NCBI GenBank assembly: GCA_903889245.1
Contig: CAISWQ010000025.1
Coordinates: forward strand, 1 to 47,166
Reading direction: 5' to 3'
Source of the DNA: an uncultured Lentisphaerota bacterium
Lineage (GTDB): Bacteria; Verrucomicrobiota; Kiritimatiellia; CAIQIC01
DNA: 47,166 nt
Part shown: piece by piece, positions 7,513 through 46,677 of the stretch
How the letters are laid out: each line of letters starts with the position of its first letter
How positions within the stretch are numbered: position 1 is the first letter of the stretch
Program-made: the position numbers and the translations under genes
Notes under the pieces: generated by a model
What the model saw: the letters and a program-made list of their open reading frames with translations, nothing else
Database searches by the model: none
Told to the model about the DNA's origin: nothing

Positions 7513-7561
7513 TTTCCAAGGCTTGGAAAATTCCCACGCGATTTTTCCAAGCCTTGGAAAA
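7513..7561. repeat. Array of two TTCCAAGSCTTGGAA palindromes inside the operon
   Basis: Two near-perfect units (7513-7530 and 7542-7561) have centres about 30.5 bp apart. They fill most of the 94-bp gap between the GH97-SGNH gene and the metallophosphoesterase gene, the only sizeable gap in this part of the operon. They can fold as hairpins in mRNA and so could also act as a processing or stability element. Confidence 0.85.
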
Positions 7562-7585: not shown

Positions 7586-10249
7586 TCACTTGTTCTCCAG
7601 CGCCGCGGTGATATGGCGCGCCACCTCGCGGGCGAGCGCCTCCGACCCTTTCGCGGTGAAGTGCGGGTTGCCGTGCTCCTGTATCTTGTCGAGTTGCGGT
7701 GTCGCGAACGCCCAGAGGTCGGCGACGGGCACGCCTTCCGCGCTCATCACTTTTTTCGCCGCCACGTTGTAGGGCAGCTCGGCGGCCTTCACGTAGGAAT
7801 GCAGGTCGGCCGGCACGGGTGTGGTTGTGGCGCAGATCAGCTTGGCGCCGGTCCGCTTCAGGCGCGCGATCAGCTCGCGCAGGTTTTGCTCGTACTGCGC
7901 CGGCGTCACGTTCTGGTGACCGCCGTTGTCGGGCCGTGCGTAGTTACCCTGCGCGTCGCGATTGTCGTTTTCGGTGAAGCGGTAACCCAGGTCGTGCAGG
8001 CCCCAGTTGAAATGAATCACGTCCCACTTGTTCGAGCCGAGCCATTTTTCGAGGTCGCGCAGGCCGGTCTTCGTCGAGCCGCAGTTCGCCGGCGGGCGGT
8101 GGAGGTTGGCCTGGCCGGCGAGCTCCTTGCGGACCGCGAGCGTGTAGCCGCACGAAACGGAGTCGCCGATCAGCAGCACGCGCGGCAGCTTCGGGTCGTC
8201 GGCGATCTGCGCAAAGCAGGGATCGATTTTCCGGGCCGGCGCGGGTGCCTGCTGGCTGGCGCCCGCGGCCGCCTCCACGATCAGCAGGTGCCCGCCGTTG
8301 GGTTCCAGCGCCAGCGGCAGCACGGTGGCGGCGTTGACCTGCTGCGTGGTGTGCCGGGCCGCGCGCTGGCCAGGGATGTCGCTATAGATGCTGGCGGTGT
8401 ACGTCACGCCGGGCTTGAGGAACGAAAGCGGCAGCGCGGTCTGCACCGCCGCCGGTCCGCTCATGCCCGCCACATACCAGCTCGTCCCCTTGCGCCGCGC
8501 GAACGTCACCCACTTGCCGGGTTCGCCAAAGACCTTGAGCTCGTCGGTCAGCCCCGGCAGCTTCTCGGCGAACTCGATCTCCGCGCCGCCTTCGCCGCCG
8601 GGCGACCACTGCTTCATGCCTGCGCGCACCGAGGCGCGGCCGGGGTAGATGCCGAGCATCGCCACCTGGTGGCAGTGCGTTTTCGACGCCTTGAAAATCT
8701 GCGGCGTGTAATCGAACGAGCCCATGATGCCGCGCGTGAACGGCAGCATGATGTCGTGCAGCGCCTTGATCGGCGGCGCGATGGAAGGTTCCGCCTCCTC
8801 GCCCGCGACGCCCTCGATGTTCACCAGGTTGGGATAGGTCCGGCAGAGGCCATGGGGCAGCACGGCATCGTGAATCACCGCGATCAGCTTGTGCTCCGCG
8901 GCCTTCTTCACCATGTAGGCAATGGCCCGCTCGTTCTGCTGCGATGCGGGGGGCACGAAGCCCGGCTTCACTCCGGCCACACCCCATTTTTCATAGCACG
9001 CGAAGACGTCCTCGATCGCGTGCTCGCCGCCGAACTCCTTCAACAGCGCGCCGCGCACATAGAGGCACAGGCCGATCGGATGCTTGAGGCTTTTGCCGTA
9101 GGCGGTGAGCGCCGGGATATCCAGGTCCACATAGTTCCCGCCGGTGAACGAATTTGGCCGGAATGGCACATAGCCCTTGGCGGCTTTCAGCAGGCCGCCC
9201 TTCACGTTCTCGCGCCACTCGGGATGCTCCTTCCAGAACGAACCCATGTGCTGTTCGAAGTTGGCGATCTCCGCCGGCGTCCACTTCGTCTCCGCGCCCG
9301 ACCACGAGTGGTCGATCTCCAGGTAGTCGAAGCCGTGCGCCGAGCCAAAATCCATCAGCTTCTTGATTTCGTCGGTCACCATCCGGCAGTTATAGACCTG
9401 GCAAATCGCCTTGCCCGGCTTGATCCACGACGTGTCCGCAATCGCGCAAGGCGGGTTCAGGTTCTCAATCAGGAACCGGTTCTCCACCAGCTTGCCCGCC
9501 GTTTCGCCGATGACCATCGCCTGCCACGACGTCTTGAACGGCAGCGCGCCCGAGGCCGGCGAATGCAGTACGCCGATGAGCGTGTTCGGCAGGTCCTTCC
9601 GGTTGCACCACGACACCACGGAAAAGTCCGCGCAGTCCGCATCGGTCAGCGACACGAACGGCCCGCCACCCAGCGCCACGGTCACGGAGCCCTCGCTCTT
9701 CTTCAGGCTGGCGATCGTCGCGTTGCCATATTGATAGTCGCGCGCGGAATAGATCGTCTTATCGCCATCGAACGTGAACTCCGTCAGCAGTTTCTTGACC
9801 GTCACCTCCTTGAGGCCCGGCTGCGGCGGGAACACATAGCGCACCGCGACGCCCTCGTCGTAGGCGCGCACTACGATGTGCAACTGCCTGCGTGCGGTGA
9901 CGGTCTCCTCCAGCTTCAGCGTCAGCTCGTTGAAGTGATCGCGCACCGTGCTCACGAATCCCCATACCGGCTTCCACGTCACGTCACCCGCCGCCGTCTC
10001 CTTGCCGAGCAGTTTGTATGTGCCGCAGAATGAATCAACGCCCAGCAACCCATCGCGGATGATCTTGTTGTCGCCGCAAGCCACGCTCCACAACGGCCGG
10101 CCCGCCTGCAGCTCGACCGCGACCACGATCTTGCCATCCGGCGAGGTCACCGACTCCGCGCCGCCCGCCACGGCGGCCAGCAACAACAAGCCGGCGCAGG
10201 CGATTTTCCAAGCCTCGGAAAACACGCTGGAACGGTTGCTTGTCTTCAT
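7586..10249 (-). CDS. Secreted GH97 glycosidase fused to an SGNH esterase domain
   Basis: This 887-aa protein is a two-enzyme fusion. After a signal peptide, residues about 33-270 match the GH97 N-terminal beta-sandwich, about 275-560 the catalytic barrel ('YLEIDHSW', 'GVAGVKPGFV', 'HDAVLPHGLCRTYPN', 'GVAGEE') and about 570-670 the C-terminal beta domain. GH97 covers alpha-glucosidases and alpha-galactosidases. The 'VKPGFV' stretch (427-432) has Gly where retaining members carry the nucleophile Asp, which resembles the inverting SusB branch. From residue 687 an SGNH hydrolase follows: 'LLIGDSVSCGY' with catalytic Ser697, 'FNWGLHDLG', and 'GNPHFTAKG' with the catalytic His. That domain probably removes acyl groups, so one polypeptide may deacylate and cleave the same glycan. 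The ATG overlaps the upstream stop. One palindrome unit is embedded in the signal-peptide codons. Confidence 0.88.
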   Translation of the reverse strand: MKTSNRSSVFSEAWKIACAGLLLLAAVAGGAESVTSPDGKIVVAVELQAGRPLWSVACGDNKIIRDGLLGVDSFCGTYKLLGKETAAGDVTWKPVWGFVSTVRDHFNELTLKLEETVTARRQLHIVVRAYDEGVAVRYVFPPQPGLKEVTVKKLLTEFTFDGDKTIYSARDYQYGNATIASLKKSEGSVTVALGGGPFVSLTDADCADFSVVSWCNRKDLPNTLIGVLHSPASGALPFKTSWQAMVIGETAGKLVENRFLIENLNPPCAIADTSWIKPGKAICQVYNCRMVTDEIKKLMDFGSAHGFDYLEIDHSWSGAETKWTPAEIANFEQHMGSFWKEHPEWRENVKGGLLKAAKGYVPFRPNSFTGGNYVDLDIPALTAYGKSLKHPIGLCLYVRGALLKEFGGEHAIEDVFACYEKWGVAGVKPGFVPPASQQNERAIAYMVKKAAEHKLIAVIHDAVLPHGLCRTYPNLVNIEGVAGEEAEPSIAPPIKALHDIMLPFTRGIMGSFDYTPQIFKASKTHCHQVAMLGIYPGRASVRAGMKQWSPGGEGGAEIEFAEKLPGLTDELKVFGEPGKWVTFARRKGTSWYVAGMSGPAAVQTALPLSFLKPGVTYTASIYSDIPGQRAARHTTQQVNAATVLPLALEPNGGHLLIVEAAAGASQQAPAPARKIDPCFAQIADDPKLPRVLLIGDSVSCGYTLAVRKELAGQANLHRPPANCGSTKTGLRDLEKWLGSNKWDVIHFNWGLHDLGYRFTENDNRDAQGNYARPDNGGHQNVTPAQYEQNLRELIARLKRTGAKLICATTTPVPADLHSYVKAAELPYNVAAKKVMSAEGVPVADLWAFATPQLDKIQEHGNPHFTAKGSEALAREVARHITAALENK
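10204..10222. repeat. Single palindrome unit within the GH97-SGNH signal-peptide codons
   Basis: TTCCAAGCCTCGGAA (10206-10220), flanked by T and A runs, encodes part of the 'VFSEAWKI' stretch just before the hydrophobic core of the signal peptide. It differs from the consensus core by one base on one arm. Confidence 0.65.
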
Positions 10250-18661: not shown

Positions 18662-19324
18662 TCACCCGATCAACGGTGGCAAATCCGCCAGCGTGCTGAT
18701 GACCTCGCTGGCGCCCGCCGCGAGCAGCGCCGCGCGGTCATAGGCGCCGGTGGTGACGCCGACCGCAGCCGCGCCAGCGGCGCGCCCGGCGCGCATGTCG
18801 TCGGGCGTGTCGCCGACCATCAGCGCCTGCGCCGGCGTCACGCCGAGTTGCGCGCACGCGGAGAGCACCGCTTCCGGGTGCGGCTTGACCTGCTGCACGT
18901 GCTCCAGCGCGACGATCACCGCGAAGTCGGCGCTGAAGCCGAAGCCCTCAAGGATGTAGCGCGCTCCGCGCTCGGAACGGTTGGTGGCGATGCCCAAGCC
19001 GACCTTCCCGCGCAAGCCCTCGAGGCCGGCGCGCAGGCCCGGCAACTCGCGCGTATGCGTCAGGCAGACCGGCCAAAACGCCGAGCGGTAGGCGTCCACG
19101 TGCGACTGCACGCGTTCCGGCGGCGCGCCGGGTTCCAAGGCCTGGAAAATCTCATAGAGCGGTCTTCCAATCCTTGGAAGAATCTCCGCGCGCGGCAGCG
19201 GCGCGCGGCCGTGCGCCGCGAGCGCGGCGTTGAGCGCGTGGCAGATCGCCTCGGTCGCGTCGAAGAGCGTACCGTCGAAATCAAAGATCACGGCGCGGAT
19301 GTTGGTGAAGCGCGGCGCTTGCAT
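18662..19324 (-). CDS. HAD-superfamily phosphatase, phosphoglycolate-phosphatase-like
   Basis: The 220-aa protein has all four HAD motifs: 'VIFDFDGTLFD' (nucleophile Asp), 'LGIATNRS', 'KPHPEAV' (Lys) and 'MVGDTPDDMRAG' (metal-binding Asp). The helical cap between motifs I and II places it with Gph/PGMB-like enzymes that hydrolyse small phosphates such as phosphoglycolate or sugar phosphates. It has no signal peptide and is cytoplasmic. Its cap codons contain two palindrome units (19133-19179), yet the protein stays collinear with the family ('IGRPLYEIF'). The ATG lies in one arm of an 11-bp inverted repeat (19316-19365). It sits 36 nt upstream of arnD and could supply read-through. Confidence 0.88.
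   Translation of the reverse strand: MQAPRFTNIRAVIFDFDGTLFDATEAICHALNAALAAHGRAPLPRAEILPRIGRPLYEIFQALEPGAPPERVQSHVDAYRSAFWPVCLTHTRELPGLRAGLEGLRGKVGLGIATNRSERGARYILEGFGFSADFAVIVALEHVQQVKPHPEAVLSACAQLGVTPAQALMVGDTPDDMRAGRAAGAAAVGVTTGAYDRAALLAAGASEVISTLADLPPLIG
19133..19179. repeat. Two palindrome units inside the HAD phosphatase coding sequence
   Basis: TTCCAAGGCCTGGAA (19133-19147) and TTCCAATCCTTGGAA (19165-19179) have centres 32 bp apart, the array period seen between genes. They encode the 'PRIGRPLYEIFQALEPG' stretch of the cap domain without an obvious insertion relative to the family. Confidence 0.75.
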
Positions 19325-20401: not shown

Positions 20402-21391
20402 TCAATGATTCAGCGGTTTGTCGAGGCCGGGGCGGACGAAGGCACGGGCCTTGGGAAAAGTTTTTTCCACGTCACGCCGCAGCTTCTCCAGGTGGATCAG
20501 CAGTGGCAGCGTCGCCGCCTCGCGCTCCGGGAACTGCGCGAGCATGCGGCCCCACGCGCCAAGCGAACGGTCCATCGCGATCAGCGCGATCTTGGCGGAG
20601 CCGGCGGCGTCGCCGCAGGGATCGCCTTCCAACCGCCCACGCAGGGCGCGGCCGAGCTTGGGGTAGAGGAAGCGCTGGTAGAAACGGATGACTTCAACCG
20701 CCTCTTGCAGCCTTGCCCACTCGCGGCGCGGCGCGCGGCCGGGCAGGCGCAACTCGAACGCCTGCTGCAACTCTTTGCCCTTGGCGCGCCACGCCCGGCG
20801 GCTGGTCTTGAACCATTGCTCCACAAGATCTCCATAAGCCTGAGCGGCGCGGGCCAGCGGATGCCGGCTCGCGCGTTCGTGATCGCGGTCTTCGGAAAAT
20901 GCGGCGGCGGCGAGTTCTGCATCGGTGATGACGATACCCTTGCGTTCCAAATCCTCCCGCAACATCTCGATGACTTGGAGGAAGCTTTCGATCATGCCTT
21001 TCCAAAACGCCTCGTTGTGGATGTCGTGTGCTTCCGGCGACCGAGTGCGATTTTCCTCCTGCTCCATCTGGAAGTTGAGGCAACGCGTGGTGTGGGTGCA
21101 GCGCTCGCACCAGCGGTCGCAATAGTTGTAGATGCCCGGCACGAGCTGCGGGTTACGGGCCAGTTCCTCCAGCCGTTGGCCTTTCCTGTTCGTGATCGCA
21201 CCGCTTTCCAGACCTTGGAAAAATTTCCGGTGTTTTTTCCAGGTCTTGGAAAATCCCACGGAATTTTTTCCAAGGCTTGGAAACGGCCGCGCCGGCTTCA
21301 GCCGCGCGCTTTCCAGGCGGCGCAGGCGCGCTCGAAGATCACATCCGTTTCGGCGTCGCGTACCTGCCGCTTGGGATCGGCGCGCAGCCAC
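20402..21391 (-). CDS. Uncharacterised protein with a CxxxCxxC...C cluster; start uncertain
   Basis: Function is not recognised. The certain part (about 265 aa, from near 21190) begins 'LEELARNPQLVPGIYNYCDRWCERC' and includes four Cys in 'YCDRWCERCTHTTRCLNF', likely a zinc or Fe-S site. It continues as a long, mostly helical, Glu/Arg-rich domain with no signal peptide or membrane helix, suggesting a cytosolic protein. The frame runs open upstream through three palindrome units to an ATG at 21391, inside the epimerase gene, giving a 94-bp overlap. A GTG at 21259 between the units is a possible start (285 aa). Either way the N terminus would be repeat-encoded, and no normal ribosome binding site lies closer. 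I recall similar Cys-cluster proteins of unknown function in other phyla. It is probably the last gene of the ompA operon. Confidence 0.65.
   Translation of the reverse strand: MAARRSQAAGTRRRNGCDLRARLRRLESARLKPARPFPSLGKNSVGFSKTWKKHRKFFQGLESGAITNRKGQRLEELARNPQLVPGIYNYCDRWCERCTHTTRCLNFQMEQEENRTRSPEAHDIHNEAFWKGMIESFLQVIEMLREDLERKGIVITDAELAAAAFSEDRDHERASRHPLARAAQAYGDLVEQWFKTSRRAWRAKGKELQQAFELRLPGRAPRREWARLQEAVEVIRFYQRFLYPKLGRALRGRLEGDPCGDAAGSAKIALIAMDRSLGAWGRMLAQFPEREAATLPLLIHLEKLRRDVEKTFPKARAFVRPGLDKPLNH
21205..21283. repeat. Array of three palindromes with exact 31-bp spacing
   Basis: Units TTCCAGACCTTGGAA (centre 21213), TTCCAGGTCTTGGAA (21244) and TTCCAAGGCTTGGAA (21275) are spaced 31 and 31 bp. 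They lie just after the epimerase stop codon (21298) and before the conserved part of the Cys-rich protein, in its open frame. Confidence 0.9.
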
Positions 21392-22573: not shown

Positions 22574-24001
22574 TTACTTGATGCCGGGTTCGGGCTTCGG
22601 CGTCGCGGGTTTTTCCGGCGCGGCAGGCGCGGCCGGTTCCGGCGTGGCGGCGGACGTCACCGCCGGCGCAGCGGGCGCGCCGGGATTATCGGTGCCGGTG
22701 CGGTCGTGCTGCACGGTGCCGGTCGGCTTGATATAGACCTCGACGCGCCGGTTCTTCTGCATGTTTTCCTCGGTCGTGTTTTCCACGACCGGCTTGTCGA
22801 AGCTCCAACCCTTCTGCGTCAGGCGGTCGGCCTTGACGCCGCCGACGTTGATGAGGTAGTCCACCACGGCCTTGGCGCGGCGCTCGGAGAGCGCCTGGTT
22901 ATATTCGTGCGTCGAGCGCGGACGCTTGTCGGCGTGGCCCTCGACCTTGGCGGTCGCGCCCGGATCGCGCTTGAGCACCTTGGTGATGATGTCCAGTTTG
23001 CCGAGATCGCCGGAGCGGATGATCGCCTTGTCATAGTCGAACTCCAGCAGCAGCGTGTACTTCATCAGGTCGTCCTTCGGGTCCAGCGGGTTCGTGCTGT
23101 CCTCGAGGACCTCGTGGCCGTCGGAGACGCCGCCGGCGTCGGTGTCGGGATTGGTCGGGTCGGTGTGATAGACCTTGATCTCGGCGCCATCGGTCAGGCC
23201 ATCGCCATCGGTGTCGGGATTGAGCGGATTGGTCTTGATGAGTTTGCCGTTTTGCAGCACGCCGTGGACTTCCTCGCCATCGGTCAGGCCGTCGCCATCG
23301 GAGTCGGGGTTGAACGGGTCGGTGCCGATTTCGCGCTCTTCCTTGTCGGTCAGGCCGTCGCGGTCGCTATCGAGGTCGCCGGCCTGCGTCAGCACGACGC
23401 GCGCGGGCGGCGTGGCGCCAAAGCGATAGTTCACGCCCACGGTGAGGTAGTGGTTGAGCTCGGTGTCCTCGTCGTCGGCGACGATCGCGGCGCGGTAATC
23501 ACCGCGCAGCGCCCATTCGTCGTTGAAGTGGTAGAACAGACCGCCGCCGAGCTGGCCGAAGGGCGTGACGGTGCCGTAGCCGAGGTACTTATCGCTCAAC
23601 ACGAGGCCGGCACCGGCCGCGAGGAACGGATCGAAGCGCGGATTCTGGGTGTTGCGCAGGTGCATGAGCACATCGAGCGAGGGGCGCACCGCCCACGCGC
23701 TGCCGAACTCATTTTGCTTCTGCGGCGAGCCATCGGTGAAGCTGCGGCCCGGCAGATAGGGCAGGAGGTCCAGCCCGCCTTCCAGCGTCCAGCGCGGCGA
23801 GAGATCGTAGCCCAGCTTGAGCGAAAGCACCGGGCCGTTTTTCATCAACTGGTCGCCCTCGAACAGGGCTGCGCCCACACCCGCGCTTATGGACCACGGC
23901 GCTTCCTTGAACAGGTCGCGTGCCGGGGCGGCGCCCTCCGCGCGGGCCGCGCCCGCGAGCACCACCAACGCCGCCAAACCACCGCAAATATGCTTCGTCA
24001 T
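22574..24001 (-). CDS. OmpA-family outer-membrane protein with TSP3 calcium repeats
   Basis: The 475-aa product has a signal peptide, an N-terminal eight-stranded-type barrel (about 30-205), then thrombospondin-3-like calcium repeats ('LDSDRDGLTDKEE', 'PDSDGDGLTDGEE', 'PDTDGDGLTDGAE') from about 212 to 300. An OmpA/MotB-type peptidoglycan-binding domain follows (about 320-430; 'VEGHADKRPRSTHEYNQALSERRA', 'NRRVEVYIKP'). A Pro/Ala/Glu-rich tail of about 40 residues ends the protein. It should tether the outer membrane to peptidoglycan. A promoter at 24034-24062 and a short hairpin at 24012-24028 precede the start, and an array of three palindromes lies further upstream. Confidence 0.92.
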   Translation of the reverse strand: MTKHICGGLAALVVLAGAARAEGAAPARDLFKEAPWSISAGVGAALFEGDQLMKNGPVLSLKLGYDLSPRWTLEGGLDLLPYLPGRSFTDGSPQKQNEFGSAWAVRPSLDVLMHLRNTQNPRFDPFLAAGAGLVLSDKYLGYGTVTPFGQLGGGLFYHFNDEWALRGDYRAAIVADDEDTELNHYLTVGVNYRFGATPPARVVLTQAGDLDSDRDGLTDKEEREIGTDPFNPDSDGDGLTDGEEVHGVLQNGKLIKTNPLNPDTDGDGLTDGAEIKVYHTDPTNPDTDAGGVSDGHEVLEDSTNPLDPKDDLMKYTLLLEFDYDKAIIRSGDLGKLDIITKVLKRDPGATAKVEGHADKRPRSTHEYNQALSERRAKAVVDYLINVGGVKADRLTQKGWSFDKPVVENTTEENMQKNRRVEVYIKPTGTVQHDRTGTDNPGAPAAPAVTSAATPEPAAPAAPEKPATPKPEPGIK

Positions 24002-24103: not shown

Positions 24104-24183
24104 TTCCCAGGTTTGGAAAGCCAGAGCGGTGGTTTTCCAAGCCTTGGAAAATTTCGGGCGGTTTTTCCCGGGGCTTGGAAAAC
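24104..24183. repeat. Array of three palindromes, about 31-bp spacing
   Basis: Units centred at 24111 (TTCCCAGGTTTGGAA), 24142 (TTCCAAGCCTTGGAA) and 24172.5 (TTCCCGGGGCTTGGAA) are spaced 31 and 30.5 bp. They lie between the DUF3795 stop codon and the ompA-type promoter. Confidence 0.9.
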
Positions 24184-29376: not shown

Positions 29377-29518
29377 TTTTCCCGGGCATGGGAAAAGCGC
29401 GCGAAAAATTTCCCGAACCCTGGAGAAATTCCAGCCCAAACTTCCAAGACTTGAAATTTTTTGACGGATTATTTCCAAGGCTGGGGAACGCGGCGCGGGG
29501 TTTTCCAAGCCTTGGAAA
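29377..29518. repeat. Five-unit palindrome array in front of purSL
   Basis: Unit centres are at about 29386.5, 29417.5, 29448.5, 29480.5 and 29510, spacing 31, 31, 32 and 29.5 bp. Units 1-4 are degenerate (for example TTCCAAGACTTGAA), unit 5 is near perfect. They fill most of the 246-bp gap between the small membrane protein and purSL, and the last unit lies next to the putative purSL promoter. Confidence 0.88.
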
Positions 29519-33372: not shown

Positions 33373-33452
33373 TTTCCAAGGATTGGACACGGAACCTGGC
33401 GTTTTTCCGGGCCTTGGAAAAAAACAACGGCCCGTTTCCAGGGTTTGGAAAA
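33373..33452. repeat. Array of three palindromes with exact 31-bp spacing between convergent genes
   Basis: Units centred at 33381, 33412 and 33443 are spaced 31 and 31 bp. They lie between purQ (plus) and the isomerase gene (minus), where no promoter is expected, so the array is not tied to upstream regions only. Confidence 0.9.
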
Positions 33453-37850: not shown

Positions 37851-37931
37851 TTTCCAAGGCTTGGAAAAAGCGGACGACTTTTTTCCAAGCTTTGGGCAAT
37901 TTTGCCACGCGACGTTCCACGCTTTGGAAAA
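37851..37931. repeat. Array of three palindromes with about 31.5-bp spacing
   Basis: Units centred at 37859 (TTCCAAGGCTTGGAA), about 37890.5 (degenerate) and 37922 (TTCCACGCTTTGGAA) fill the gap between the ROK kinase gene and the promoter region of the DUF4912 gene. Confidence 0.88.
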
Positions 37932-41981: not shown

Positions 41982-42091
41982 GTCCACACCTTGGAAATGG
42001 GCTGGCGGTTTTTTCCAAGGTTTGGAAAACTCCGGCCCGAACTTTTCCAAGGCTTGGAAAAAGTGACGGAAAATTTTCCAAGCCTTGGAAA
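41982..42091. repeat. Array of four palindromes with 31-32-bp spacing
   Basis: Units centred at 41989 (degenerate), 42020, 42052 and 42083 are spaced 31, 32 and 31 bp. The last three are near perfect. They occupy the gap between the second GH57 gene and the start of the discoidin/GH9-like gene. Confidence 0.92.
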
Positions 42092-42108: not shown

Positions 42109-44748
42109 ATGCCAAAACGACAACAAGAACAGCGACTCTGCCAGCCGCCAGCCACCATTCACCATTGCCCCATCCCGCATCGCATCTCTTTTTGCCGCCC
42201 CTCCTCCCTCGACACCCGTCCCTCGCCACTCGTCCCCCGCCCCTTGTCCCTTCTCCTCGCCGCGCTGCTGCCGCTGTGCGTTCTCGCGGAGCAGGCGCCG
42301 GTGAATCTCGCGCTGCGGCGGCCGGCGACGACGGACTCGGCCAAGGGCAAGGGCCATTACTACAGCCCGGCGCTGGCGGTAGATGGCCTCGTCTCCGACA
42401 AGTCGCGCTGCATGAGCGCAACCCGGACGGACCCGCACTGGCTGGCGGTCGAACTGGCGGCGGAGACGTGGCTCGGCAGCGCGCACCTCTATTCCGGTTA
42501 CGGCGGCGAGCCGACGCTGTTCGACTTCGAGCTGCAGTCGTGGGATGGCGCCGCGTGGCAGACGATCCCCGGTACGCGGACGAAGGGCAACACGAAGACC
42601 GCGCAGGCGGTCATCTTCGAAAAGCCGGTGAAGACCGCGAAGCTCCGGCTGCTGGCGACGCAGTGCCACCAGCACATCCTGCGGATCAAGGAGTTCACGC
42701 TCTGGGCGCCGCAGATGGATGGCGGCACGCCACCGCTCGGCGCCGGCGTGCAAATCCTCGACGAGGCCGCGCCGGAAGCCGGGCTGAACATCAAGACGGA
42801 GTTCGAGGAGCACCCCGTGATGGTCAACCAGAGCGGCTACAACCTCGACTGGCCGAAGCGCTTCACCGCGCCGCTCGCGAAGGGCGAGGCGGAGTTCACC
42901 ATCACGCCCGCCGATGGCAGCAACGTGCTCTACAGCGGCAAGGTGCTCGGCGGCGTCGGCGACTTCACGGATTTCCGGCCGGCGGCGACGGGGCAGGAAT
43001 ATGTGATCACCGTGACCGGCGGCGAGCTGAAGCCCGGCCGGTCCGATCCGTTCGCCATCGCACCGCTGTGGCTGGAGCGCGTCTGCCTCGACCCGACGCT
43101 GCGTTTCATGAGCGACTGCCGCAGCGTGGTCGGCACGCATCCCTCGGCTTACGGCGCATGTCCGTGGCGCGATGGCACCGACTACGACTTCGCGATCCCC
43201 TCGCTCGTGCTGCTCTACCTCGCCAACCCCGCCTACTACGAGCAGGCGCCGGTCGAGATCAACTGGCAGCAGGACCGGGCGAAGTTGCTTGCGCCGGGCT
43301 TCAAGTTCTTCGGCGATGGCGGCGGCCAGCCGGCATTCGCGGCGGCGAGAATCTATTACACGAAACTCGAGGCGCCCGTGGGCGCGCACGTGCCGGACCT
43401 CGTGCAACTGCTGCACTGGGGTGTGGGTTTCTATCTGGCGAAGGCGGGTGCAGCAGAGGGCGAGCCCACCACCGCGAAGCTGCCGCCGCCGCAGACGCTC
43501 GAGCAGCTCGCGTTCTTCCTCTACGTCTATCCGCACATCAAGCCGTACATCAGCGACAGGTTCTACGCGACGGCGCGCGATTACGTCTTCGCGCACTGGG
43601 ACAAGGCCGGGCTGTTCGGCGTGCAGACGAAGGTCGGCTCGTTCAAGGGCTACGACTGCCCCGGCCACTCGATCATGCCGAACCTGCTGCTCTACGAGGT
43701 GGCGCGCCGCGAGGGCCGCGCCGAGGCCGAGCGTTACTTCAACGCCGCCTATGACCAGACGCAGTGGATCATCGAGAAGCTCGACCTGCACGATCCGCAC
43801 ACGACCAAGGGGCAGCGCATGGCCGAGATCAAGCTGCCGACCGGGCTCGTGCTGATGCAGCGCGACTACGGCGACCGCGCGCCCGCCGGGCTCGCTGCGA
43901 AGCTGGAGCAGTGGGCGCAGAGCGCCAGCGCGCGCTCCGCGAACCTGTGGGACTTCCGCAAATATGACGACGCCAACTGGACGCTGCCGCGCTTCGAGGG
44001 CTCCAAGGAACACGGCGGCGCGGGCTGGAACGAGCCGGGCAACATTGCCGGCTTCCCGGGCCTCTGCTTCGCGGTGGCCTCGGTGCTGCCGGAGGCCGCG
44101 CAGCACGCGCGGCTGGAGCAGCTCGCGGCGGCGCACTTCGACGACCTCTTCGGGCGCAACCCGCTCGCGGCGCACTCCTCGGAGCGCGGGCCGCAGGACT
44201 ACCGCGGCGTCGAGCGCGGCTGGCCGAAGAAGTTCAGCCGCAACACCTGCGCCCGGATCGAGCTGTGCCGCGGCGGCCTCAACTCCTCCTGCGCCTCGGA
44301 GCATTATCCCTTCAACCCCGGCGGCGCGTTCCGCCACTGCGAGGGCTGGGTCAACTTCAACACCGCCTTCAACGTCGGCCTCGCCTACGCGATGTGGCAC
44401 GACACGCGCCTCGCATTGCGCGATGACGCCGGCCAGCCGGTGACGCAGCTCAAAACCGGCCAGGCGGTTCAGGTTCACCTGCGCGCGCCGACCGACCACG
44501 CGACGCAGTTCAGCGTCACCATCACCAACGGAAAAACGGAGCAGAAGCTCCCGCTCCAGGCCGCTGCCGCCGCGCCGTGGGAACATGCCGCGACCGTGAA
44601 GTTGAGCGAACAGCCCGACGGCCAGCCCGGCACGCTCGTGGTGAAAAAAGGCGATGCGCTGAAGTTCTCCTATGGCCACGGCTTCCTGCGGCGCGAACTG
44701 GCGCTGGCCTACGATACCGCCGCCGACGCCTGGCGGATGAAGCCCTGA
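42109..44748 (+). CDS. Secreted discoidin-domain protein with GH9-like catalytic module
   Basis: The product is 879 aa if started at the ATG at 42109, which has GGCGGAGA about 6 nt upstream. Its hydrophobic signal ('SLLLAALLPLCVLA') only begins near residue 46, after an odd Pro/Arg/His-rich stretch encoded by 7-bp repeats. Mature domains are an F5/8C (discoidin, CBM32-like) domain (about 65-205: 'NLALRRPATTDSAKGKG', 'ALAVDG', 'LAVELAAETWLGSAHLYSGYG'), an Ig-like CelD_N-type domain ('VMVNQSGYNLDWPKRFT', about 245-335), and a six-helix-hairpin domain of about 450 residues ending in a beta module. The order resembles GH9 enzymes, but a GH9 catalytic Asp pair is not obvious. It is likely a polysaccharide hydrolase or lyase-like protein of unknown substrate. 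Confidence 0.65.
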   Translation: MPKRQQEQRLCQPPATIHHCPIPHRISFCRPSSLDTRPSPLVPRPLSLLLAALLPLCVLAEQAPVNLALRRPATTDSAKGKGHYYSPALAVDGLVSDKSRCMSATRTDPHWLAVELAAETWLGSAHLYSGYGGEPTLFDFELQSWDGAAWQTIPGTRTKGNTKTAQAVIFEKPVKTAKLRLLATQCHQHILRIKEFTLWAPQMDGGTPPLGAGVQILDEAAPEAGLNIKTEFEEHPVMVNQSGYNLDWPKRFTAPLAKGEAEFTITPADGSNVLYSGKVLGGVGDFTDFRPAATGQEYVITVTGGELKPGRSDPFAIAPLWLERVCLDPTLRFMSDCRSVVGTHPSAYGACPWRDGTDYDFAIPSLVLLYLANPAYYEQAPVEINWQQDRAKLLAPGFKFFGDGGGQPAFAAARIYYTKLEAPVGAHVPDLVQLLHWGVGFYLAKAGAAEGEPTTAKLPPPQTLEQLAFFLYVYPHIKPYISDRFYATARDYVFAHWDKAGLFGVQTKVGSFKGYDCPGHSIMPNLLLYEVARREGRAEAERYFNAAYDQTQWIIEKLDLHDPHTTKGQRMAEIKLPTGLVLMQRDYGDRAPAGLAAKLEQWAQSASARSANLWDFRKYDDANWTLPRFEGSKEHGGAGWNEPGNIAGFPGLCFAVASVLPEAAQHARLEQLAAAHFDDLFGRNPLAAHSSERGPQDYRGVERGWPKKFSRNTCARIELCRGGLNSSCASEHYPFNPGGAFRHCEGWVNFNTAFNVGLAYAMWHDTRLALRDDAGQPVTQLKTGQAVQVHLRAPTDHATQFSVTITNGKTEQKLPLQAAAAAPWEHAATVKLSEQPDGQPGTLVVKKGDALKFSYGHGFLRRELALAYDTAADAWRMKP
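42208..42256. repeat. Degenerate 7-bp tandem repeat (YYCGYCC) in the 5' coding region
   Basis: Seven consecutive heptads (CTCGACA, CCCGTCC, CTCGCCA, CTCGTCC, CCCGCCC, CTTGTCC, CTTCTCC) follow one another without gaps. A second heptad-like run with CCACCAT/TCACCAT units lies at about 42150-42180. Both lie between the putative start codon and the signal peptide core of the discoidin protein. Confidence 0.7.
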
Positions 44749-44752
44749 ACGC

Positions 44753-44770
44753 GTCCAAGGCTTGGAAAAA
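44753..44770. repeat. Single palindrome unit after the discoidin/GH9-like gene
   Basis: A unit with core CCAAGGCTTGG follows 4 nt after the stop codon, centred at 44760. Only one unit is present here. It could be a 3'-end hairpin. Confidence 0.75.
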
Positions 44771-44850: not shown

Positions 44851-45741
44851 ATGCTAGGGTTGCTCGCCAAAATAGTGTCCCGCCATCTCGCGCGGCTCCC
44901 CCGCCCGACCCTGCTCAAGCGCGGGGCGCGGCTGGGCTGGGTGTTGGCGCATGTGGTCCGCCACCGGCGGGCCGAGGCGCGCGCCGCGCTCAAACGCAGT
45001 CTGCCGGAACTCTCCCCGACCGCCACCACCGCCGCGCTGGATGGCATGTACCGCAACCTCTCGCTCAACCTGGTCGAGATCCTGCGGATGTATGGCGGGG
45101 CCACCGACGAACTGGCCGCGCTCATGACCATCGAGGGCGAGGAACATGTGCAGGCGGCGCTCGCGCGCGGGCGCGGCGCGCTGATCCTCACGGCGCACCT
45201 GGGCAACTTCGACATGCTCGGCATGTTTGCCGCCTACCGCCATTACCCGCTGACCATCATCTCCAAGCGGATCAAGAACGCGGCCATCAACCAGATCTGG
45301 AGCGCGCTGCGCGAGCGCTTCGGCATCCACATCCTCTTTGCGCCCAATACCGCGCGCGGCTGCCTGAAGGCGCTACGCGCGAACGGGCTCGTCGGCTTCA
45401 TGATTGATCAGAACCGGCCGCGCGAGCAGGGGGTGTTCGTCCAGTTCTTCGGCCGGCCCGCCTGCACGACGCCGGGGCTGGCGATCCTGTCCTCGCAGGC
45501 GCAGGCGCCGGTGATCCCGATTTTCATTTCGCGGTGCGCTGACGGCACCCACCTCCTGCAAGTCCAGCCGCTGCTCGAACCGCCGCCCGACCGCGAGGCC
45601 GCGACCATCCTGCGCTACACACAGCTCTACACCACGATCACCGAGCAGGCGATCCGCCGCCACCCCGAACAGTGGACGTGGATCCACCGCCGCTGGAAAA
45701 CCCAGCCCGCACCCGGCGACGCCGTTGCCGTGACGGCATAA
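44851..45741 (+). CDS. Lipid A late acyltransferase, LpxL/HtrB family, first copy
   Basis: The 296-aa protein transfers a secondary acyl chain to lipid A (or a related lysolipid) at the inner membrane. 'RGRGALILTAHLGNFDMLG' contains the HX4D catalytic motif, 'GLVGFMIDQNRPREQGVFVQFFGRPACTTPGLA' the DQ and G-P blocks. The start at 44851 is chosen because it aligns with the start of the second copy; an in-frame GTG at 44833 would add six residues. No Shine-Dalgarno sequence is seen. It is about half identical to the next gene over the whole length, indicating tandem duplication. Confidence 0.92.
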   Translation: MLGLLAKIVSRHLARLPRPTLLKRGARLGWVLAHVVRHRRAEARAALKRSLPELSPTATTAALDGMYRNLSLNLVEILRMYGGATDELAALMTIEGEEHVQAALARGRGALILTAHLGNFDMLGMFAAYRHYPLTIISKRIKNAAINQIWSALRERFGIHILFAPNTARGCLKALRANGLVGFMIDQNRPREQGVFVQFFGRPACTTPGLAILSSQAQAPVIPIFISRCADGTHLLQVQPLLEPPPDREAATILRYTQLYTTITEQAIRRHPEQWTWIHRRWKTQPAPGDAVAVTA

Positions 45742-45786: not shown

Positions 45787-46677
45787 ATGCTTGATGTGTT
45801 CACCACGGCGGTTTCCCGCGGACTGGCGCGGCTTTCGCGCCCGGCGTTGCTGCGCTGGGGCGCGCGGGTCGGCTGGTTCTACGGCCATATCGTCCGCCAC
45901 CGCCGCACCGGGGCGCTGGCCGCGCTGCGCAGCAGCCTGCCGGAGCTGTCCGGGGCCGAGGCTGTCGCCGCGCTCGACGGCATGTATCGCAACCTCGCCA
46001 CCAACATCCTTGAAGTGCTGCGCGCCGATGGCGGCGCGGCGGAGCACGAGGAGTCTCTGTTCAGTGTCGAGGGCGAGGAGCACGTGCGGGCCGCGCTCGC
46101 GCGGGGACGCGGCGCGCTGATCCTGATGGCGCATTTTGGCAGTTGGGAACTGCTCGCCGCCCACGCCGCCCACCGCGGCTACCACCTCCACATCGTCGCC
46201 AAGCAATTCAAGAACCGCGCCGTGGACAGCCTCTGGAACCGGCTGCGCCAACGCTATGGCGTCAGCGTCATTCAGGCGCACGAGGCCGCGCGACCGGTGC
46301 TGCGGGCGCTGCGCGCCAACGCGCTCGTCGGCTTCATGCTCGACCAGCAGAGGCCCTACGGGCAGGGCGTTTTCGTGCAGTTCTTCGGCCGGCCGGCGTG
46401 CACCTCGCCGGGGCTGGCGATCCTGTCCTCGCAGGCGCAGGCGCCGGTGATTCCGGTTTTCATGCACCGCCGCGCCGATGGTGGCCACCACATTCGCGTC
46501 CTGCCGCTGCTCGCGCCGCCGCCCGACCGTACCCCGGCCACGGTGCTGCGCTGCACGCAGCGCTACACGACCATCCTCGAGCGGGAAATCCGCGCGCATC
46601 CTTCGCAATGGATCTGGCTGCACCGCCGCTGGAAGACCCAGCCGCAGCCGGGCGATCCTGTCGCCCTGCCGGAATAA
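45787..46677 (+). CDS. Lipid A late acyltransferase, LpxL/HtrB family, second copy
   Basis: This 296-aa paralogue has 'RGRGALILMAHFGSWELLA' with HX4E in place of HX4D; both forms occur in active LpxL/LpxM enzymes. 'ALVGFMLDQQRPYGQGVFVQFFGRPACTSPGLAILSSQAQAPVIPVF' is almost the same as in the first copy. It starts 45 nt after that gene. A TATTTT box lies 6 nt before its ATG, but the -35 side is poor and no ribosome binding site is visible. Two copies suggest the two secondary acylations of one lipid A or different acyl donors. Confidence 0.92.
   Translation: MLDVFTTAVSRGLARLSRPALLRWGARVGWFYGHIVRHRRTGALAALRSSLPELSGAEAVAALDGMYRNLATNILEVLRADGGAAEHEESLFSVEGEEHVRAALARGRGALILMAHFGSWELLAAHAAHRGYHLHIVAKQFKNRAVDSLWNRLRQRYGVSVIQAHEAARPVLRALRANALVGFMLDQQRPYGQGVFVQFFGRPACTSPGLAILSSQAQAPVIPVFMHRRADGGHHIRVLPLLAPPPDRTPATVLRCTQRYTTILEREIRAHPSQWIWLHRRWKTQPQPGDPVALPE

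Follow-up and report, generated by a model that had tools for sequence, protein, structure and literature searches.

Phased palindrome arrays, some of them written into existing codons, as putative protein-binding sites of a bacterial chromosome

DNA uptake sequences (DUS/USS) of Neisseria and Pasteurellaceae number hundreds to thousands of copies per genome and are present in reading frames (PMC2346458). The repeat described here is also found in thousands, coding frames included (2466 sites in one genome; in the surveyed portions of two genomes, 74 and 105 units are coding), but it differs from DUS/USS in being palindromic, in standing in rows at 31–32 bp and in lying mainly between genes. 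To our knowledge, uptake sequences do not occur in helically phased rows of 2–6. The highly iterated palindrome HIP1 is 8 nt long and linked with methyltransferases, and we know of no phased arrays of 15–19 bp units among its features. HIP1 is frequent in cyanobacterial genomes, patchy within a class and of unsettled function (PMC4390886). High genome frequency and patchiness within a class are shared by the palindrome studied here; its consensus, TTCCAAGSCTTGGAA, however, contains neither GCGATCGC nor a GATC/CGATCG methyltransferase motif.

REP/BIME elements are likewise numerous intergenic palindromes, often near the 3' ends of genes. The present repeat differs from them by a fixed helical step, by the lack of RAYT association and stem covariation, and by being common at divergent junctions and present in genes. 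It resembles the Rickettsia palindromic element in lying within protein genes with the frame kept; that element adds residues to its host protein, whereas here residues are kept or replaced and none added (HAD, PNP, LigA and amidohydrolase, with ThiD across the genus). Intrinsic terminators, a hairpin followed by a U tract, stand at transcript ends only, in contrast to the present units, which are preceded by T and followed by A and are found at every kind of junction as well as within genes. The sites of parS, Noc, SlmA and MatP are palindromic, spread over the chromosome and also found inside genes; they number in the tens and are mostly single. The repeat shares with these sites palindromy, protein-like recognition (independent positions) and a chromosome-wide distribution, under-dispersed in the genome of origin, and departs from them in reaching about 2,500 copies in rows of 2–6. 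By its palindromy, protein-like recognition and chromosome-wide spread, it would be a counterpart of such dispersed nucleoid or chromosome protein sites, with a putative binder. A search of the literature did not find the repeat described.

The DNA analyzed is a stretch of 47,166 nt (the window). Its genome (G000) was compared with three congeners (G001, G002 and G003) and with G005, of another genus in the same family. Units were scored by mismatch count to the consensus. Across the whole of G000 (5.26 Mb, 125 contigs), the 2466 sites at ≤2 mismatches compare with 15 for the reversed pattern, and at ≤3 mismatches 29 sites were counted in the window where 0.54 would be expected (Table 1). The unit profile, TTTTCCAAGSCTTGGAAAA, is a palindrome of 15–19 bp; spacers are GC-rich and unconserved. 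Arrays were surveyed in 1.49 Mb of G000 (28%) and 0.95 Mb of G001 (~38%), where genes of these metagenome bins were called with a simple program based on codon usage. The G000 portion held 709 units in 310 arrays, where 371 of 399 within-array steps were 31 or 32 bp and hardly any other step occurred. The first-pass annotation had equated the 32-bp step of the pair at 19133–19179 with that of intergenic arrays; the strict 31/32-bp step agrees with this, although in G000 31 bp is the commonest step (234) and 32 bp the second (137). The 339 arrays in the G001 portion are nearly all single units or pairs at 32 bp, almost the exclusive step there (161/185), whereas rows in G000 reach 6 units at 31/32 bp.

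Table 1. Array features of the window and array-bearing genes with signal-peptide-like N-termini elsewhere in G000
Feature	Position	Strand	Evidence
2 perfect units, 31 bp apart, intergenic	7514..7559		site scan
Single intragenic unit near 5' end of gene 7586-10249(-)	10206..10220		site scan
HAD_2 family hydrolase gene, 220 aa, contains array	18662..19324	-	open frame; Pfam HAD_2 2.3e-35; genus orthologues 75-84% identical
Unit 2 in gene reading order; forward strand TTCCAAGGCCTGGAA, coding strand TTCCAGGCCTTGGAA, codons of FQALE	19133..19147	-	1 mismatch to consensus; kept in G001 and G003, weaker in G002
17-bp spacer, native family codons (RPLYEI)	19148..19164	-	10/17 bases identical to array-less G005 gene
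Unit 1 in gene reading order; forward strand TTCCAATCCTTGGAA, coding strand TTCCAAGGATTGGAA, within LPRIGR	19165..19179	-	1 mismatch to TTCCAAGSCTTGGAA; rare codons CTT CCA AGG ATT GGA AGA; 15/15 identical in G001
3 units, 31 bp step, largely intergenic; left part overlaps called end of 20402-21259	21206..21282		site scan
3 units, 31 bp step, intergenic	24104..24180		site scan
3 units, 31/30 bp step, intergenic	29442..29517		site scan
3 units between convergent genes	33374..33450		site scan
3 units, 31/32 bp step, intergenic	37852..37929		site scan
4 units, 31/32/31 bp step, intergenic	41982..42090		site scan
Single unit, 5 bp past stop of 42244-44748	44753..44767		site scan
Signal-peptide-like array gene	G000:C44:137476-139446		
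Signal-peptide-like array gene	G000:C54:96725-97963		
Signal-peptide-like array gene	G000:C33:6424-8400		

The window also contains repeats of other kinds. A 300-bp direct repeat, 78% identical, lies at 45364–45663 and 46300–46599 in the neighboring called genes 44851–45741 and 45847–46677, which look like tandem paralogues. Repeats of ~60–90 bp at 23104–23376, within the minus-strand gene 22574–24001, resemble calcium-binding Asp-rich repeats.

Two phased units inside the HAD gene had been noticed from the sequence alone, with the remark that they leave the protein undisrupted and collinear with its family. Both observations hold. The units are 32 bp apart, start to start, with one mismatch each; the segment encodes PRIGRPLYEIFQALEPG, and HAD orthologues form a codon alignment without any insertion or deletion. 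No residues have been added, and those present were already there in array-less, nearly unit-free G005. At the place of unit 1, G005 has LPRIGRPLVEIFQALN / LPRIGRPLVEIFQALNPG in the ordinary codons CTG CCC CGG ATC GGC CGC, from which G000 differs by synonymous changes only. The unit 1 codons of G000 are common to G001 and slightly different in G003, and in G002 the unit has decayed. Three of them make up small shares of their synonymous sets in G000 (AGA 0.6%, AGG 1.7%, GGA 3.9%). The suspected bias of synonymous sites to the palindrome proved strong: given protein and codon usage, the probability of so few mismatches is 4.1e-9 in G000, 8e-10 in G001, the most distant congener, and 3e-7 in G003, compared with 0.019 in G002 and 0.17 in G005 (G000 codon usage being applied to G002, G003 and G005). 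Third positions were retained at 9/10 inside the HAD units versus 120/203 (p 0.09, suggestive); pooled over genes, which include genes picked for an array in both species, retention gave p 9e-4. Because G005 has the same residues in ordinary codons, and the probabilities are low in G000, G001 and G003, the HAD residues are older than the units, the palindrome having been written into existing codons. Neither simple explanation raised at the outset accounts for the pair: a plain insertion implies that orthologues without the repeat lack these residues, which G005 has, and a chance match implies the same codons in distant orthologues, whereas the palindrome codons of HAD are confined to the genus.

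Similar sites exist in other genes. In the sampled parts, multi-unit arrays within called genes number about 18 in G000 and 22 in G001, and phased coding pairs number 25 and 19, respectively, versus 0–1 when the coding sequence of these parts is resampled synonymously. Purine nucleoside phosphorylase (PNP) has an array in each of G000, G001, G002 and G003, the last of these weaker, that is absent from G005 at equal length. The array of a ThiD-like kinase is present in G000 and G001, left as partial remains in G002 and gone in G003; that of LigA is found in G001 only. Through the array segment, solved relatives of these enzymes align gap-free. Some intragenic arrays have been lost or weakened in G002 and G003. 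In an amidohydrolase with an array in G000 alone, 11/29 unit bases changed on the G000 lineage, 10 toward the consensus and 0 away, and 7/12 array codons changed in amino acid versus 29/242 elsewhere in the gene. As the gene was picked for having an array, these figures show in-place origin by substitution, not selection per se. For three genes with array-less relatives, 32/50 spacer bases are identical (p 7e-7 versus 0.30); in the array-less relative one unit is already near the consensus (3–5 mismatches), and the other was remodeled from 7–9 mismatches. Collectively, these alignments indicate that the sites in the three genes arose by in-place substitution with native spacers and sometimes altered amino acids. 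Insertion is thereby excluded, and block overwriting is disfavored.

The first-pass annotation had offered two origins for the HAD pair, overwriting of existing sequence and DNA-level selection on codons. The data agree with selection or a comparable bias at the level of the site, and disagree with gene conversion in blocks. Overwriting from other arrays would likewise preserve gene length, yet it is very unlikely in view of the native spacers in three genes, the purely synonymous changes at HAD unit 1 and the finding that adjacent spacers are no likelier to match than random ones. En-bloc overwriting was rejected on the native spacers; conversion limited to single units of ~15 bp may occur. 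Insertion of a mobile palindrome of the REP/BIME or Rickettsia type would suit the high copy number, palindromy and intergenic preference, as well as the few intragenic arrays in extensions or poorly aligned ends. We nonetheless regard it as extremely improbable, given that no added residues were found at arrays in HAD, PNP, LigA and amidohydrolase orthologues, nor in ThiD compared across the genus and with solved relatives. Moreover, the number of RAYT (Y1_Tnp) genes does not follow that of the repeat, with 2 weak candidates in G000, none in G070, which has 60 exact phased pairs, and 21 in G044, which has no phased pairs. Insertion was rejected on the absence of an indel in HAD and of a correlation between RAYT count and arrays. 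A few further intragenic arrays, in extensions or in poorly aligned or unaligned ends, may be insertions.

Some arrays also fall on the signal-peptide-like N-terminal ends of proteins that are apparently exported (MKNNAIPILGTFALLLFQSLE..., MKKLFPILGTLAVLFFQYFE..., ...FPIIGTLAVLFFQGLE...), where the units consequently encode the borders of the hydrophobic core.

In the sampled parts, arrays are mostly intergenic, occur at every junction type and lie at a median of 14–28 bp past stop codons. Relative to junctions of at least 60 bp, array numbers in G000 amount to ~58% at convergent, 35–40% at tandem and 36% at divergent junctions; in G001, convergent junctions of at least 60 bp number 51, and arrays at convergent junctions 47. 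Position relative to gene starts is loose. Intergenic arrays of G000, about 5–6 kb apart, are under-dispersed (CV 0.67 versus 0.86±0.06 for random choice among the same gaps; 0/2000 permutations as low), and 6% of inter-array distances are <2 kb versus 19% in permutations. G001 shows the same trend, not significant (p 0.15 and 0.13). In addition, intragenic arrays lie <1.5 kb from another array less often than expected in the two genomes (2/16 versus 43%, p 0.010; 6/21 versus 54%, p 0.016). We infer from the even spacing and mutual avoidance that one site per few kilobases is required and is placed inside a gene where necessary. Only 71 shared gene junctions were informative on the conservation of intergenic arrays, and one of them had arrays in both genomes. 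The same protein-binding arrays might instead act locally, as operators or insulators at transcription-unit boundaries, with intragenic arrays regulating or blocking the host gene. The proximity to stop codons and the junction preferences in G000 favor such local action; the presence of arrays at all junction types and their loose placement relative to starts do not, and regular spacing with inter-array avoidance is not expected of local operators. We consider this reading rather unlikely.

The units behave as expected of sites read by a protein. Symmetry within units is what independent columns would give, base changes are independent of the mirror position, and neighboring spacers resemble each other no more than random pairs do, so that no signature of tandem duplication was found. 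Protein recognition predicts these features, whereas RNA stems and tandem duplication do not, and recent tandem duplication of units was rejected because the spacers are dissimilar. Paired units of both genomes tend to have G at the center of the left unit and C at that of the right, giving the pair itself a dyad; the HAD pair conforms. A spacing of three helical turns suggests that dimers sit next to each other on the same helix face. RNA hairpins, with units serving as bidirectional terminators or mRNA stabilizers, might be suspected from palindromic units often past stop codons whose neighbors can pair. Complementary pairing of neighbor units, however, equals that of shuffled pairs in G000 and is in slight excess in G001 through the central G/C preference. 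Helical phasing is needless for RNA, arrays also lie at divergent junctions and inside genes, and Rfam gave no match to the repeat. Hairpins are thus highly improbable, and we rejected them on the missing covariation and Rfam match.

Genomes of the genus carry 375–1777 units at ≤1 mismatch; two genomes of the sister genus have 8 and 14. Copy number in the rest of the class is patchy, from 0 to 493. Exact phased pairs were present in 10/388 genomes sampled from the phylum, all within this class and including G070 and G097 of other families, and were absent from the about 255 sampled phylum genomes outside the class. Viral contigs had no exact phased pair, on which ground phage-borne arrays were rejected. 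G100, of another family, has a 32-bp step in 17/18 close neighbors among those listed, and G054 and G064, likewise of other families, have rows at a 31-bp step. In G131, from another family of the class, two units (G131:C11:4932 and 4954) are 22 bp apart, or two helical turns; many of its units appear to stand alone and to have different center bases, so that array geometry may vary with lineage.

A palindrome preferred in DNA uptake or recombination could accumulate, also within genes, by biased transfer and mutation with no benefit per site. The wide differences in copy number between related genomes would suit such a drive, as would the origin of sites from near-matches by substitution; uptake sequences, too, reach hundreds to thousands of copies and are found in reading frames (PMC2346458). 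Such a drive is nevertheless distinctly unlikely here, considering the helically phased rows of 2–6 with their narrow range of steps in G000, the strong intergenic preference of arrays and the native spacers, which transfer from a donor would have replaced with donor sequence.

We therefore lean, on balance, toward regarding the arrays as cooperative binding sites for a putative dimeric protein that probably organizes the chromosome. The HAD units would be one of about a thousand arrays of sites for this putative sequence-specific DNA-binding protein. Each palindrome of 15–19 bp would hold one dimer, and the 31–32 bp step would place neighboring dimers on one face of the helix and so allow cooperative binding. 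The arrays stand mainly between transcription units and are also built inside genes, by point substitutions in half-matching sequence that add no residue. A fixed protein such as HAD accommodates them with synonymous rare codons, and variable proteins such as the amidohydrolase and PNP with amino-acid changes. Given the even spacing in G000 and the avoidance shown by intragenic arrays, the likeliest purpose is chromosome-wide (nucleoid architecture or transcription-unit insulation) and not control of HAD. Against a chromosome role stands a copy number that ranges from 0 to thousands within the class, with 8–14 in the sister genus, which is odd for an essential function. Also weighing against this reading are the intragenic arrays that G002 and G003 have lost or weakened, the non-significant under-dispersion of G001 and a third-position retention in the HAD units that is no more than suggestive.

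More tentatively, and with appreciable doubt, the repeat may represent a class-restricted chromosome-organizing system in which a protein assembles on three-turn phased palindrome arrays every 3–6 kb, and selection for array density is strong enough to create them even in conserved enzymes, which pay with rare codons and changed residues. What a DNA signal demands of a protein gene can be read off directly here, from identical residues that occur both with the signal and in its absence, as can its synonymous and amino-acid costs and its repeated gains and losses among close species. Should the binder be found, it would bring to light a system of nucleoid organization or insulation in a class that has received little study and provide a natural experiment on the evolution of sites inside genes.
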